This document shows positions 9,146 through 15,324 of a stretch of DNA of 64,000 nucleotides, piece by piece (the stretch's first letter is position 1; each line of letters begins with the position of its first letter). The position numbers were made by a program, and so were the translations under genes. This stretch comes from Rhodoluna lacicola (GTDB lineage: Bacteria; Actinomycetota; Actinomycetes; Actinomycetales; Microbacteriaceae): positions 682,001 to 746,000 of the forward strand of contig NZ_CP007490.1 of NCBI RefSeq assembly GCF_000699505.1, read 5' to 3'. A model generated the notes under the pieces. It searched no databases. It saw only the letters and a program-made list of their open reading frames with translations, and was not told the origin of the DNA.

Positions 9146-9215
9146 ACTTGACATGGGTCTTAGTAATGCCCGAAACGGTATGCACCGATTCGGTGGGGGC
9201 ATCGAGAGGTATCAA

Positions 9216-10946
9216 GTGGCAAAGAAGGATTCTCAAACCGGTAAGAAGCGTGGCGGCTTGCTTTCCAGTCTTTTGCGTTCTGCCACAGATAAAAGCTCAT
9301 CGACAAAGAAAACTAAAGCTAAGGAAACCCCCGTCATCAGCGCTTCAACCAGTAAATCAGCGGCAAAGACAACAAAGCCAGCTGCCAAGCCAGCAACAAA
9401 GACTGCAGCTAAAGCCCCAGTGAAAGCCGCAGCAAAGCCTGCTGTCAAAGCGGCTTCGAAGACGGTAGCCAAAGCTGCCCCAAAAAAATCCGCCAAGCCG
9501 GTTGCGAAGGTAACTGCCAAGGCAAAAACCGCTGCCAAGGCCGCAGCAAAGCCAGCTGCCAAGACCAGTGCTAAGGCTCCTGCCAAAGCATCAGTCAAGG
9601 CGTCAGCTAAGCCAGCCGCAAAAGCCGCGCTAAAACCTGCTAAACCAGCAGTAAAAAAAGGTGAAAAGACCACCGGTAAGACTGCCGCCAAGCCTGAGGC
9701 CAAGGCGGCGCTAAAAAGTACCACCAAACCGGCCGCTAAAGGTAAGGCTGCAGCCGTTCCGGCCTCAAAGGCTAAGCCGGCAAAGTCCAGTAAATTGCCT
9801 AAGGAATTAGCTGAAGACGAAGATGAAATCGACGATGAGGCCGACCTGGAATCGGTTGATGAAATCGTCGCTGAGGCTGCCGCGGTCGTAGACATTTCAG
9901 CGGTTGAGGAAGAACTTCCAGAGGAAGAGCCTGAAGAAGACAAAGCCAAGAATGAGATCGCAAAAATCGGTGGAATGGTTCTTTCCAACCGTGAAGAAGA
10001 CGACATTCCTGCCCAGACCACAACTATTACCGGTGCAACTGCTGACCCGGTTAAGGACTACCTAAAGCAAATTGGTAAAGTCGCTCTGCTCAATGCCGAG
10101 CTAGAGGTTGAGTTGGCCAAGCGCATTGAGGCCGGGCTATTTGCAGAAGAAAAACTTGCCACCGATAAAAAGATTTCTCGCGACGTTGAGCGCGATCTCA
10201 AGTGGGTAGTTAAGGACGGCCAGCGAGCCAAGAGTCACCTGCTAGAGGCAAACTTGCGTTTGGTTGTAAGCCTTGCGAAGCGCTATACCGGTCGAGGAAT
10301 GCAGTTCCTGGATCTGATCCAAGAGGGAAATCTGGGTCTTATTCGAGCCGTTGAGAAATTTGACTACACAAAGGGTTACAAGTTCTCTACATATGCAACC
10401 TGGTGGATTCGCCAGGCAATCACTCGCGCTATGGCAGATCAGGCTAGAACTATCCGTATTCCGGTTCACATGGTTGAAGTCATCAACAAACTAGCCCGAG
10501 TTCAACGTCAATTGCTTCAGGACCTTGGCCGCGAACCAACCCCAGAGGAACTAGCTCGCGAACTGGACATGACCCCTGAAAAGGTTGTTGAAGTACAGAA
10601 GTACGGTCGTGAACCAATTTCTCTTTCCACTCCTCTTGGCGAGGATGGCGACAGCGAGTTTGGTGACCTTATCGAAGACACCGAAGCGGTTGTTCCAGCC
10701 GACGCTGTTGGTTTCACGATGCTTCAGCGTGAACTTGAAAGAATTCTTGATTCACTGCACCCGCGTGAGGCTGGAGTTATTCGCTCACGCTTTGGCCTTG
10801 GTGACGGTGTTCAAAAGACCCTTGATCAAATCGGCGAAGAATTCGGTGTCACCCGCGAGCGTATCCGTCAGATCGAGTCAAAAACCATGTCAAAACTTCG
10901 TCACCCGTCTCGTTCACAGATGCTTCGCGATTACCTAGAAAACTAA
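9216..10946 (+). CDS. rpoD: Primary RNA polymerase sigma factor (SigA/HrdB type)
   Basis: Housekeeping sigma-70 factor. An N-terminal ~170-residue Lys/Ala/Pro-rich stretch (KPAAK-like units) is followed by an acidic region (~195-245), then sigma regions 1.2 ([16 protein letters not shown]), 2 ([20 protein letters not shown], with the -10-reading [14 protein letters not shown]), 3 and 4 (helix-turn-helix [16 protein letters not shown]). Start uncertain: an in-frame ATG at 9153 would add 21 residues, but the GTG at 9216 has GAGAGG six bases upstream and begins [11 protein letters not shown]. MurT- and GatD-like genes follow after 17 bases with no terminator. Confidence 0.95.
9360..9790 (+). repeat. 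Degenerate Lys/Ala/Pro codon repeat inside sigA
   Basis: Repeated short units of AAG/AAA, GCC/GCA/GCT and CCA/CCT codons encode KPAAK, KAAAK and similar pentads. The units vary by point substitution. The stretch also creates a long open frame on the opposite strand that is not a gene. Confidence 0.7.
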
Positions 10947-10963
10947 GACCCGGGTACAAACAA

Positions 10964-12232
10964 GTGTTCTACGTTCCGGCCATTCTGATCGGACGCCTAG
11001 TGCGACTTGCGGTTCGCCTGGTGAGGCCTGGCGGCGGAAGTGCCTTGCCCGGTCTTGTGGTTAGTAAAATTGCGCCGGGTTTACTGGCGCGAACCCTTTC
11101 CAAGTTTCCCGAGGGCTTGGTCGTAATCACGGGATCCGCCGGAAAATCTACGACAACCAAAATGGTTGTTGCTATAGCTAGAGCGCACGGTAAAAAGGTT
11201 TTTACAAATCCCTCAACTGCAAACATTACTCAGGGCTTCTTCTCTTCGATTATTGAGCGCTCTGACATTGCCGGAAGAATTCAGGGTGACGTGGCAATTC
11301 TGGAAATGGACGAGGGGCACGCAGCCGAAATTACCAAACGCATAAAACCGCAGCACGTCACGGTGCTGAACGTTTTAGATGATCAGTTGGATCGTTTCGT
11401 TGACCCACTTCTGGTGAGAAATAAACTTGCCGATGTTGCTCAAAGAGCCACAGAAGCACTTATTTTGAATGCGGATGATCAGAACATCCTTCAAATCTTT
11501 AATTCAATCAAAAGCCAAAAGGCTTCTTGGTTTGGGCTCAGCTCACAGCTGATCTCAAACTCGGAGCATGGGCTTGGGAATTCACCTACCTACTTAGCCC
11601 CACTACCTCGACCTATCCCAGCAACCGAGGTGGTGGAATTCAAAAATTCCCTTGCTAAGGGCTTTGTTGCGGGCGAGCAAATCGAATTTGCGCTGCCTAA
11701 CCGTGGAATTCATTTTGCTCTCGATGCAGCTGCCGCTTTGGAGACATCGAGACGTTATTTGGCCTCGGAATTTGATACCAAACTTGCAACCAAAACTCTG
11801 AGTGAACTGCCACCTGTTTTTGCGAGAGGGGAACTCACCAAAGTCAATGGGGTAGATGTTGAGTTTATATTGGTGCAGAATCCAATGAGCTTTCAGTTGA
11901 ACCTAGACAATCTTCCAGCCGACCAAGAACAAATTATGGTGGCAATAGGCACAGATGTTCATGACCCGTCGTGGTTATGGACAGTTGATCTCAAGAAGCT
12001 CCCCAAGGTGGACATAGTCTCAGGCTTTAACTATGCCGAGATGGCGTTGCGTTTGGCATATGAAGAAATAGAAATAGATCGCATTGAGCCGAATTTAGAA
12101 AAAGCTATCGATGACTTTTTTGCTCTACCTAAGCCAACAGCGGGCCGACGAACTGTAATTTTCTCGGCCGATGCGATGAGGAGAACTAGACGATACTTGG
12201 GTTTCACAGATCCAGAGGCGGTCGAGAGATGA
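10964..12232 (+). CDS. MurT-like Mur ligase without a zinc ribbon
   Basis: Homologue of MurT, the ligase that with GatD amidates the alpha-carboxyl of D-Glu in lipid II. Features: basic/hydrophobic N-terminus, P-loop TGSAGKSTT (residues 56-64), LEMDEGHAAEI (113-123), NADD (169-172), and the MurT C-terminal motif DPSWLWTVD. Odd points: the protein contains no cysteine, so the four-Cys ribbon inserted in MurT after the central domain is absent, and the usual KNP motif reads QNP. GTG start without a clear Shine-Dalgarno sequence, 17 bases after sigA. Ammonia ligation is not assured; see the partner gene. Confidence 0.8.
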   Translation: MFYVPAILIGRLVRLAVRLVRPGGGSALPGLVVSKIAPGLLARTLSKFPEGLVVITGSAGKSTTTKMVVAIARAHGKKVFTNPSTANITQGFFSSIIERSDIAGRIQGDVAILEMDEGHAAEITKRIKPQHVTVLNVLDDQLDRFVDPLLVRNKLADVAQRATEALILNADDQNILQIFNSIKSQKASWFGLSSQLISNSEHGLGNSPTYLAPLPRPIPATEVVEFKNSLAKGFVAGEQIEFALPNRGIHFALDAAAALETSRRYLASEFDTKLATKTLSELPPVFARGELTKVNGVDVEFILVQNPMSFQLNLDNLPADQEQIMVAIGTDVHDPSWLWTVDLKKLPKVDIVSGFNYAEMALRLAYEEIEIDRIEPNLEKAIDDFFALPKPTAGRRTVIFSADAMRRTRRYLGFTDPEAVER

Positions 12233-12864
12233 AATTGATTTTTGCAGCGCTCTATCCAAGTCATCTCAATCTAAACGGTGATCAGGCAAACCTTTTGGTT
12301 GCCAAAAAGCGGTTGGGCTGGGCTGGGATTGATTGCGAGATTGCGAGTATCGGCAAGGGTGAAGCAATCCCAAAGAACGCAGACCTGATATTTATTGGAC
12401 ACGGATCCATCGCCGCGTGGGAAGACATAGAAGACGATCTGACAGCAAGAATTCCAGAGATTGGATTTCTAGTAGATAGCGGTGCAGCTCTAATGGCCGT
12501 TGCAACCGGACACGAGTGGGCAATTAATTCTGGATTTTTTGAAAATCGGATTTCAAAGATCGATCGGATTTCAAAATTCGAAATCTCAAGGCTGGGTGAA
12601 CTTGAAGTACTGGGCTATCTCAACACTTCAACGAATGCACCGGTGATTCAGAAAATCAATCTTTTGATTGGAACTCAGTTGCATGGTCCGGTGTTGGCAA
12701 AAAATCCTGTCCTAGTTGATCAATTCCTTGAAGAGATCATTGTTTCTAGGTACGGTTCAGTGTCAGCTGAAAAGCTTCGTCATTCAAACAGCAACCAGGC
12801 TGAGACAGTCAACAGCATTGTTAGCGAAGTTTGGAAACTTGAGCGAGATTTAGCGAGCGAGTAG
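12229..12864 (+). CDS. GatD-like class I glutamine amidotransferase homologue lacking the catalytic Cys
   Basis: 211 residues, ATGA overlap with the MurT-like gene. Family features remain: an N-terminal nucleotide-like YPSHLNLNGDQANLLVAKKR in place of GatD's YGDxGN, and the histidine motif GTQLHGPVLAKNP (H152). However, the nucleophile-elbow position reads FLVDSGAALM, so Ser84 stands where GatD has Cys in CGG(Y/F)Q, GGGQD reads GHGSI, and the GFENHGGRT-like segment before the histidine motif is missing. The frame is intact. It is probably not a glutaminase; a scaffold role or a different ammonia/amine source are possibilities. Confidence 0.78.
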   Translation: MKLIFAALYPSHLNLNGDQANLLVAKKRLGWAGIDCEIASIGKGEAIPKNADLIFIGHGSIAAWEDIEDDLTARIPEIGFLVDSGAALMAVATGHEWAINSGFFENRISKIDRISKFEISRLGELEVLGYLNTSTNAPVIQKINLLIGTQLHGPVLAKNPVLVDQFLEEIIVSRYGSVSAEKLRHSNSNQAETVNSIVSEVWKLERDLASE

Positions 12865-13242: not shown

Positions 13243-15324
13243 GTGTCAAACAACGATTATTCAGCCCGCCACCTCTCTGTACTAGAGGGTCTAGAAGCCG
13301 TTCGCAAGCGGCCTGGTATGTACATCGGGTCTACAGACAGTCGCGGCCTCATGCATTGTCTTTGGGAAATCATCGATAACTCAGTTGATGAGGCGCTTGC
13401 AGGTCACGGTAACCGAATCGAAGTCACCCTGCATAAGGACGGAAGCGTTGAGGTAACCGACAAGGCGCGTGGAATCCCGGTTGACATCGAACCTAAAACA
13501 GGGCTCTCTGGTGTGGAAGTTGTTTTCACAAAGTTGCACGCCGGAGGAAAATTTGGCTCTGGTTCATACGCTGCCTCTGGCGGTTTACACGGAGTTGGCG
13601 CCTCTGTAGTAAACGCTCTATCACAGCGACTGGATGTAGAAGTGGACCGTGGCGGAAAAACCTACGCAATGTCTTTTCGCCGAGGTGAACCTGGGATTTT
13701 TGATGACAAAAAAGGCATTAAACCCGACAACCCATTCAAGCCTTTCGAGGACGGTTCAATTCTTCGTGAGGTAGGCAAGGTCGGCAAGAATGTCACCGGT
13801 ACCAGGGTTCGATACTGGGTTGACCCACAAATTTTCATCAAAGATGCTGTTTTTGCTTTGGAGGAACTTTCAGCTCGAGCTCGTCAAACTGCCTTCCTGG
13901 TTCCTGGGCTTTCGCTTGGTATCAATGACGCCAGAGACGGTAAATCCAGCAAGCAGGAATTCAAGTTCGATGGCGGAATTATCGAGTACGCCGAGTACCT
14001 TGCTAAAGATCCAGCGCTAACCTCAACCTGGCGCTTGTCAGGAACTGGTTCATTTACCGAAACTGTGCCAGTCCTGGATGCAAGCGGAAACATGGTTTCA
14101 AAAGAGGTTGAAAGAAGTTGCGATGTTGATATTGCGGTTCGTTGGGGCACAGGCTACGACACCGATGTCAAGTCATACGTAAACATAATTGCCACACCTA
14201 AGGGCGGAACTCATATTCAAGGATTCGAGCAATCGCTCTTAAAAACTCTGCGCACGCAGATTGAAAGCAATGCAAGAAAACTTAAAGTTGGCAACGACAA
14301 AGTTGAAAAAGAAGATGTTTTAGCCGGCCTAACAGCCGTTGTCACGGTTCGGCTCGCAGAACCGCAATTTGAGGGACAGACCAAAGAAATCTTAGGAACT
14401 CCAGCGGTTAAGAACATCGTTGCCAATGTCGTTGCAAAGTCTCTCACCGCCAGATTCGCTAGTTCGAAAAGAGACGACAAAGCGCAGTCTGCTCTATTGC
14501 TTGAAAAAGTTGTTGCAGAGATGAAATCAAGAATTTCTGCTAGAAGCCACAAAGAGACTCAGCGGCGGAAAAACGCTCTAGAGAGCAGCTCATTACCCAC
14601 CAAGTTGGTTGACTGTCGTACCCAAGATACTGCGGGATCTGAGCTATTTATTGTTGAGGGCGACTCAGCTTTGGGCACTGCCAAACTTGCGCGCGACAGT
14701 GAATTCCAAGCGCTATTGCCCATTAGAGGAAAGATTCTGAACGTCCAAAAAGCATCAATTTCCGATATGCTCTCGAACGCAGAATGCGCTTCTATAATCC
14801 AGGTGATTGGGGCTGGTTCAGGGCGTAGCTTTGATTTGGATTCTGCCCGGTACGGAAAAGTTATCTTGATGTCTGATGCTGACGTAGACGGGGCTCACAT
14901 TCGAACCCTTTTGCTAACCCTCTTTTTCCGTTACATGCGCCCATTGGTGGAGGCTGGCCGGGTATTCGCGGCTGTTCCTCCGCTGCACCGCGTTGAGGTT
15001 GTGAATGCCGGCAGCAAGGCGAATGAGGTCATCTACACCTACTCACAGGCAGAGCTCGAGGACTTACTCAAGAAGCTTGAGAAGGCTGGAAAGCGTTACA
15101 AGGAACCAATCCAGCGCTACAAGGGTCTTGGTGAAATGGATGCCGATCAACTTGCCGAAACCACCATGGATAAGAATGCACGCAGCTTGCGCAGAGTTCG
15201 AGTAGAGGACGCTGCCGCGGCCGAGACCGTTTTTGAATTGCTGATGGGCAACGAGGTTGCTCCACGTCGAGACTTCATCATTGATTCAGCTGACGGTTTC
15301 GAGCGCGAAAGAATCGACGCGTAG
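13243..15324 (+). CDS. parE: DNA topoisomerase IV subunit B (type IIA ATPase subunit)
   Basis: ATP-driven subunit of a type II topoisomerase. The N-terminal GHKL domain shows NSVDEALAG, DKARGIPVD (Ala in place of the usual Gly of DxGxG) and GGLHGVGASVVNALS. The Toprim domain shows LFIVEGDSALG, LPIRGKILNVQKAS and MSDADVDGAHIRTLLL. Length 693 is normal for ParE. Called ParE rather than GyrB because the pair is away from dnaA and fits the actinobacterial second-topoisomerase locus; an exclusive gyrase role cannot be ruled out from this window. The partner subunit faces it, 22 bases apart. Confidence 0.9.
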   Translation: MSNNDYSARHLSVLEGLEAVRKRPGMYIGSTDSRGLMHCLWEIIDNSVDEALAGHGNRIEVTLHKDGSVEVTDKARGIPVDIEPKTGLSGVEVVFTKLHAGGKFGSGSYAASGGLHGVGASVVNALSQRLDVEVDRGGKTYAMSFRRGEPGIFDDKKGIKPDNPFKPFEDGSILREVGKVGKNVTGTRVRYWVDPQIFIKDAVFALEELSARARQTAFLVPGLSLGINDARDGKSSKQEFKFDGGIIEYAEYLAKDPALTSTWRLSGTGSFTETVPVLDASGNMVSKEVERSCDVDIAVRWGTGYDTDVKSYVNIIATPKGGTHIQGFEQSLLKTLRTQIESNARKLKVGNDKVEKEDVLAGLTAVVTVRLAEPQFEGQTKEILGTPAVKNIVANVVAKSLTARFASSKRDDKAQSALLLEKVVAEMKSRISARSHKETQRRKNALESSSLPTKLVDCRTQDTAGSELFIVEGDSALGTAKLARDSEFQALLPIRGKILNVQKASISDMLSNAECASIIQVIGAGSGRSFDLDSARYGKVILMSDADVDGAHIRTLLLTLFFRYMRPLVEAGRVFAAVPPLHRVEVVNAGSKANEVIYTYSQAELEDLLKKLEKAGKRYKEPIQRYKGLGEMDADQLAETTMDKNARSLRRVRVEDAAAAETVFELLMGNEVAPRRDFIIDSADGFERERIDA

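Follow-up and report, generated by a model that had tools for sequence, protein, structure and literature searches.

A MurT-like ligase with a dead GatD partner in Rhodoluna lacicola: a candidate for attachment of the cross-bridge residue in B-type peptidoglycan

The locus between rpoD and parE

The window analysed here is a 64,000-nucleotide stretch of the 1,430,433 bp genome of Rhodoluna lacicola MWH-Ta8, a freshwater member of the Microbacteriaceae (contig NZ_CP007490.1, positions 682,001 to 746,000). It contains two adjacent genes whose products resemble MurT and GatD, the ligase and glutaminase subunits of isoglutaminyl synthase, and which lie in a slot between a sigma factor gene and a topoisomerase gene. 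The pair is considered as a candidate for a ligase that joins an amine other than ammonia to a carboxyl group of the cell wall. The genes of the slot and its borders, taken from a list of open reading frames, are:

10964-12232, + strand: murT-like gene, clade B1 (GTG start, 422 amino acids, no cysteine)
12229-12864, + strand: gatD-like pseudo-glutaminase gene (ATG start, 211 amino acids)
9153-10946, + strand: left-hand border gene, for a sigma factor of the rpoD/sigA type (C-terminal motif)
13243-15324, + strand: right-hand border gene, for a topoisomerase subunit of the ParE/GyrB type (motif LEGLxAVRKRPGMYxG)

The murT and gatD reading frames share 4 bases, and murT starts 17 bases past the stop codon of the left-hand gene. 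We presume that gene to be rpoD from its C-terminal motif, and we take the right-hand gene to be of the ParE/GyrB type on the same footing, from its own motif.

The assignment of the pair to the MurT/GatD type comes from both domain and fold searches. The window MurT matches MurT_C (PF08353, E 2.7e-10) and Mur_ligase_M (PF08245, E 4.7e-09), in each case over the Pfam cut-off. The GatD-like protein has no Pfam match at E 0.1, and its matches to NCBIfam GatD models (E 8.8e-12 and 2.2e-06) fall well short of the cut-offs. Both proteins miss the NCBIfam equivalog cut-offs (92 versus 800 bits for MurT; 27-45 versus 400 and 450 bits for GatD), a weak indication, as no canonical actinobacterial pair was scanned alongside. 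AlphaFold2 models of the MurT and GatD-like proteins have mean pLDDT values of 88.6 and 86.5. A fold search with the first returns MurT chains of MurT/GatD complexes at ranks 1-11, and a search with the second returns GatD chains at ranks 1-9. The window MurT carries a P-loop (GSAGKS), an ExDE stretch (EMDE), and DPSWLW; thus, the ATPase motifs, the DPSWLW motif, and the complete lack of cysteine that had been noted in an earlier, sequence-only reading of this DNA are all present. There is a single PF08353 match in the R. lacicola genome. A second, canonical pair, which that reading had named as a finding that would speak against its proposal, is therefore absent here, though some relatives have both.

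Active-site residues of GatD and MurT

The column of the GatD catalytic cysteine (S. aureus C94) was read beside each MurT. Window-like MurTs, in which the P-loop is mostly GS[NSA]GKS, form clade B (69 MurTs and 68 GatD rows, no GatD having been found at L074), and the comparison outside the family consists of 33 loci hand-picked to span nine other families of the order. The cysteine is retained in 0/68 clade B and 0/9 clade C rows, all of them from Microbacteriaceae. Both the cysteine and the catalytic histidine are retained in 14/14 canonical pairs of the same family and in 33/33 loci from the nine other families. Among the matches listed for named genomes, which partly overlap the first set, the cysteine is lost in 28/28 loci with a readable pair GatD. 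The pattern of a dead GatD is family-wide and not due to chance. According to one report, C94S, a mild change, abolishes amidation in S. aureus (PMC6113224). The window GatD has alanine at this position, so that the sequence-only reading was right in calling the glutaminase dead and wrong in implying, with "Ser-GatD", a serine there.

A GGGGQD stretch, found in 36 of the 37 canonical GatD rows (AGGGQD in the remaining one), is replaced by IGHGSI in the window protein, an internal stretch of which is shorter than in its relatives. The histidine of the HGP motif (S. aureus H189) is retained in the window, within QLHGPVLAKNP. Across clade B this column holds H in 44/68 rows and otherwise Y, N, A, Q, G, or K; in clade C it holds H in 0/9.

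Residues at the activating end of the ligase are conserved. K61, N87, D116, and E117 of the window MurT are equivalent to K59, N85, D112, and E113 of S. pneumoniae MurT, which have been linked to ATP and the D-Glu carboxylate (PMC6085368). None of the four varies among the MurTs compared (37 canonical, 69 of clade B, 9 of clade C). The equivalent of R135, described as closing a gate in models (PMC6085368), is present in 37/37 canonical and 9/9 clade C MurTs and in 0/69 of clade B; in the window it is D139, and the K321 equivalent is Q305. The equivalent of S. aureus D349 (D334 in the window) is present in 69/69 clade B and 0/9 clade C MurTs; the change D349N is reported to reduce amidation severely in S. 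aureus (PMC6113224). The KNP loop is followed by S-x-Q-x-N-x-D, a stretch that is new in clade B (S in 68, Q in 63, N in 69, and D in 62 of 69). The DNAAD-type motif, a stretch that has been proposed as contacting the stem peptide (PMC6113224), is replaced in 24/24 clade B and C rows printed, and the window MurT has GTDVHDPSW where NDxYADGRDxSW is expected. Because the ATP and carboxyl residues are invariant, while R135 and the putative amine-side motifs are changed, clade B MurT appears to have retained its activating end and rebuilt its amine end. The view that the protein is a carboxyl-activating ligase without glutamine-derived ammonia, also taken from the letters of the window alone, agrees with these invariant residues and with the loss of the GatD cysteine throughout the rows of clades B and C and at none of the 33 other-family loci.

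Drift of the GatD active site in clade B (seen in the histidine column) and the shortened GatD of the window could indicate a decaying remnant or a non-catalytic scaffold. This is highly improbable, since the MurT catalytic residues are invariant in all of clade B, the pair is retained in a streamlined 1.43 Mb genome, and clade B is found in 95 of 150 family genomes (two only as fragments).

A pair of this kind might also still amidate D-Glu, or another wall carboxyl, using free ammonia and no glutamine: S. aureus MurT/GatD is described as using ammonia at pH 8.5 (PMC6085368), and the D349 equivalent has been kept throughout clade B. However, the bridge of a B-type wall is described as occupying the D-Glu alpha-carboxyl, the gate residue is lost in 69/69 clade B MurTs with the amine-side motifs changed, and two Leifsonia species have, in addition to a dead pair, a canonical one in which Cys and His are intact. 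Continued amidation is thus quite unlikely.

The lack of cysteine itself is less informative. The MurT zinc ribbon is gone from the window protein, as the sequence-only reading had stated, but its loss is not telling. Two CxxC motifs occur in 0/14 canonical MurTs of the family and 0/23 of other families, and 2/23 of the latter are fully Cys-free beside an intact GatD (cysteine counts per MurT may be inflated by over-long reading frames). CxxC motifs do occur in 5/10 "odd" MurTs of other families, and the Cys tetrad is ascribed to only "some Actinobacteria" (PMC6085368). Loss of the zinc ribbon was rejected as a marker, since the ribbon is absent in 37/37 canonical MurTs too and does not define the class in this order.

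In a quick MurT tree, for which clade B was thinned (every third B1 and every fourth B2 sequence) and L029, L074, and L079 were dropped, clade B forms one group (SH-aLRT 100) that branches from within the canonical actinobacterial MurTs; clade C lies apart from it. The most parsimonious placement on this tree requires at least two changes for the loss of the GatD cysteine. Clade C and L027/L028 sit on long branches that join each other, which leaves a shared single loss in these unsure. L027-L029 have a dead GatD and lie outside clades B and C. The "odd" other-family MurTs (L114-L117, L119-L124) and L015-L017 stand beside a GatD with Cys and His intact and are outside the dead class.

Several variants of the pair were seen in passing. 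Clade C (L019-L026, L090) has MurTs that mostly carry a Cys4 ribbon, and its GatD has a histidine in the active-site loop (RNAHP in the aligned rows). In L079, from a family member with a genome of 0.93 Mb (G015), the MurT/GatD-like pair is highly diverged and Ser takes the place of the Cys. A canonical MurT/GatD with Cys and His accompanies the dead-GatD pair in Leifsonia aquatica and L. virtsii (L310, L311), and G054, G066, and G124 likewise have both kinds.

The rpoD slot and the CofE-type alternative

An rpoD tail lies directly upstream of 66/69 clade B MurTs (missing for L050, L063, and L125) and of 9/9 clade C MurTs; within the available flanks it was found upstream of 0/14 canonical MurTs of the family and 0/23 of other families. 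A parE motif lies downstream of 33/69 clade B and 2/9 clade C pairs, the flanks often being too short to reach it.

In relatives that lack the pair, the slot holds a different ligase. A clade B profile run on 49 named genomes gives the pair in 23, a canonical pair alone in 1, and nothing in 25, and all 25 of the pair-less genomes have a CofE-like gene of ~230 amino acids after rpoD in the 8-kb locus. An rpoD-tail pattern search of the genome collection gave 80 named loci among the matches listed, to which the following slot counts apply: 43 hold CofE, 31 MurT-B, 3 MurT-C, 3 neither, and none both. The three without either are a locus that ends 5 bases past rpoD (L193), one whose genome has a clade B MurT elsewhere (L218), and one whose genome has a canonical MurT (L220). 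By genus, Microbacterium has 31 CofE and 2 MurT slots (33 loci), Salinibacterium has CofE in 3/4, and Cryobacterium has MurT-B in 3/4. The slot CofE-like genes, mostly from Microbacterium, include:

L216:1331-2020, CofE-like slot gene
L165:1752-2441, CofE-like slot gene
L196:1664-2362, CofE-like slot gene
and 40 more among the matches listed

CofE is a nucleotide-dependent amide ligase with a fold unrelated to that of MurT. The slot proteins exceed the Pfam cut-off for PF01996 (F420_ligase) in 5/5 cases scanned, and 0/5 reach the equivalog cut-off of TIGR01916 (F420_cofE), the best scoring 42 of 181 bits.

Of 150 genomes of the family, a MurT of one clade or another is present in 121 (in two as fragments) and a strong CofE (360-424 bits) in 21; none has both, and 8 have neither (Fisher p 1.9e-19, uncorrected for relatedness). 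Absence of MurT, which applies to 29/150, is defined here as a best E above 1e-20. Since the state of the slot varies within nine genera (g7, g9, g12, g57, g58, g76, g84, g79, and g85), relatedness alone hardly explains the exclusion. These genomes without a MurT match, and the CofE found in most Microbacterium slots, do not fit the suggestion of the sequence-only reading that a Cys-less MurT is the general enzyme of B-type walls. Directly after rpoD, parE is found in 7 canonical-only genomes and in the neither-genomes G019, G051, G121, G062, and G146; G049 and G119 have other genes there, and G022 and G061 were left out of this junction reading. In G123 (L343; also L321) genes for a CofE-like protein, a Cys4 MurT-like protein, and a dead GatD-like protein follow rpoD consecutively.

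Outside the family, CofE-like domains are found in a different setting. In families f6, f12, and f18, the domain forms the C-terminal part of a protein of ~900 amino acids (140-198 bits with an in-house profile). Asparagine synthetase domains are identified by Pfam in 9/10 such proteins read, L340 being without a Pfam match. The CofE end is defined by the in-house profile and alignment, PF01996 appearing at E 0.001 in 1/10, just under cut-off. The N-terminal Cys and the SGGLDSS loop of the AsnB part are intact in 8/10 of the proteins read. Both are lost in L334:2362-5007:- and L340:2979-5561:- (f12), an uncoupling like that of GatD. Among 100 genomes of these three families, 52 have a canonical MurT, 41 a CofE-like domain, none both, and 7 neither (p 3.7e-21, uncorrected for relatedness). 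A class-wide sample of 236 adds five genomes outside the order with CofE-like genes (139-231 bits), none of which has a PF08353 match; the one of these genes that was read is an AsnB fusion. The fusions L333, L335-L339, L341, and L342 are candidates for an alternative D-Glu amidase that is exclusive with canonical MurT/GatD. Both ligase folds thus occur for the most part with a live glutaminase outside Microbacteriaceae and without one inside this family, a pattern which suggests amidation elsewhere and amino-acid ligation in Microbacteriaceae.

The shared slot might instead mark an amide-ligase function that is not tied to D-Glu, with the pair acting on a different carboxyl (that of the bridge residue, for instance) or on some substrate outside the wall. 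The relatives of CofE are named in NCBIfam for F420 and folate-like glutamylation, and the neighbours of the slot are rpoD and parE rather than wall genes. Against this, the substrate reported for MurT/GatD is the D-Glu of lipid I/II (PMC6085368, PMC6113224), and outside the family CofE-like domains and canonical MurT exclude each other in 93/93 of the genomes with either (of 100). A different substrate is accordingly unlikely.

Wall chemistry and the proposed function

The wall of R. lacicola MWH-Ta8 itself is described as B-type, B2beta/B10 with 2,4-diaminobutyrate (Dab), and its hydrolysate as having Dab:Ala:Gly:homoserine (Hse):Glu in the ratio 0.8:0.5:0.9:0.4:1.0, and its partial products are reported to include both Mur-Gly and D-Ala-D-Dab (PMC4156110). 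The B-type wall that the sequence-only reading expected from the family as a whole has thus been measured in the strain. Because Mur-Gly accounts for about 1 Gly per Glu and D-Ala-D-Dab is present, this composition points to a wall in which the glycine is spent at position 1 and D-Dab remains as the bridge on D-Glu. Hse fits position 3 of B10.

The same figures bear on the proposal, made in the sequence-only reading, that the amine is glycine. Substitution of the D-Glu carboxyl in B-type walls and the occurrence of glycine in the R. lacicola wall would be consistent with it. However, the reported partial products assign the glycine to position 1 and Dab to the bridge, and Microbacterium, the bridges of which contain glycine, lacks the pair in 31 of its 33 loci. 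Attachment of glycine by the MurT-like enzyme is therefore very improbable in R. lacicola. The general direction of the earlier proposal was right; its marker was wrong and, for this organism, its amine probably was too.

Other walls agree in part. Dab walls of the B2gamma type are described in the pair-bearing genera Agreia (L-Dab with D-Orn), Cryobacterium, Herbiconiux (D- and L-Dab), Agromyces, and Clavibacter. The wall of Agromyces aureus is written with D-Glu-L-Dab, and the walls of Salinibacterium are described with Lys and Orn. Among genera, the MurT pair tends to accompany Dab walls and CofE other walls, which is a tendency and not a proven rule. A split of bridge residues between subclades B1 and B2 was considered and is not supported, as Dab genera are present in both.

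With an estimated probability of about 0.6, the window pair is a derived MurT/pseudo-GatD ligase that joins an amine not derived from glutamine, most likely D-2,4-diaminobutyrate in R. lacicola, to the alpha-carboxyl of D-Glu. In such a reaction the enzyme would phosphorylate this carboxyl in a wall precursor and then join to it an amine other than glutamine-derived ammonia. The resulting D-Dab on D-Glu would be the stub which D,D-transpeptidases cross-link to D-Ala. Because S. aureus MurT is reported to require GatD even when ammonia is supplied (PMC6085368), GatD may stay as an obligatory structural partner of MurT. The CofE-type ligase in the slot of relatives would do the corresponding job, perhaps with glycine.

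Several observations weigh against this assignment. Part of the old triad remains, since the window GatD keeps its His and the MurT D349 equivalent is retained in 69/69 of clade B. TIGR00709, a marker of Dab aminotransferase, exceeds its cut-off in 9/23 pair-bearing and 3/25 pair-less named genomes, and R. lacicola is not among them. Wall types are known for one strain and six genera, not per genome, and the Dab walls vary in detail. Cryobacterium, Salinibacterium, and Microbacterium each show both slot states. A remote CofE-like gene (129-154 bits) is present in three of the genomes with MurT, beside an odd MurT with a dead GatD in G053 and G123 and elsewhere in G147. Of the 150 family genomes, 8 have neither ligase and 11 the canonical pair only; if these have B-type walls, another enzyme must serve there. 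Finally, the link of the AsnB-CofE proteins to D-Glu is drawn from mutual exclusion alone.

A broader view is more tentative and somewhat short of even odds. B-type peptidoglycan may have arisen by the uncoupling of two unrelated wall amidases from their glutaminases. The other families compared are known for A-type walls, and in these relatives MurT (with GatD as partner) and the CofE-type ligase (with AsnB as a fused partner) would both amidate D-Glu, the AsnB-CofE proteins then being an unrecognised, MurT-independent isoglutaminyl synthase. In Microbacteriaceae both ligases would have lost this coupling at one chromosomal slot, MurT/pseudo-GatD attaching diamino acids and the free CofE-type ligase glycine or another residue, so that a one-gene swap changes the type of cross-bridge. 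Loss of the glutaminase would then, if true, be an evolutionary route followed independently by two ligase folds.

To our knowledge, no enzyme has been identified as the one attaching the bridge residue at the D-Glu alpha-carboxyl of B-type walls, and we know of no gene family named so far as the B-type cross-bridge ligase. Among the open-licence papers listed, none presents such an enzyme or deals with CofE in walls or with the MurT/GatD of Microbacteriaceae. The slot offers two concrete and mutually exclusive gene candidates at one locus, the predicted products of which are distinguishable by mass spectrometry. Pairs of clades B and C are probably misannotated where they bear the name "lipid II isoglutaminyl synthase".

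Among known systems, the pair is most like the MurT/GatD isoglutaminyl synthases (S. aureus 6GS2, S. pneumoniae 6FQB, S. pyogenes 9SQ9), with which it shares the two-gene order, both folds, the P-loop, the ExDE stretch, and the N85 and D349 equivalents, and which are its best structural matches. Unlike these, it lacks the glutaminase Cys, the GGGGQD stretch, the gate R135, and the Cys4 ribbon, its amine-side motifs are replaced, and it lies between rpoD and parE. With the Mur ligases MurD, MurE, and MurF it has the fold and the activation of a carboxyl in common, and like them the window MurT would add an amino acid and not ammonia. It differs from them in its GatD-fold partner, in a substrate that is probably lipid-linked, and in the truncated N-terminal domain that has been reported for MurT (PMC6113224). 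CofE, the F420-0:gamma-glutamyl ligase (PF01996), is represented by the relatives that follow rpoD in pair-less family members, and no sequence link was seen between the CofE-type ligase and MurT. The slot CofE-like protein stands alone in Microbacteriaceae, whereas the CofE-like domain is fused to AsnB in 9/10 of the other-family proteins read.

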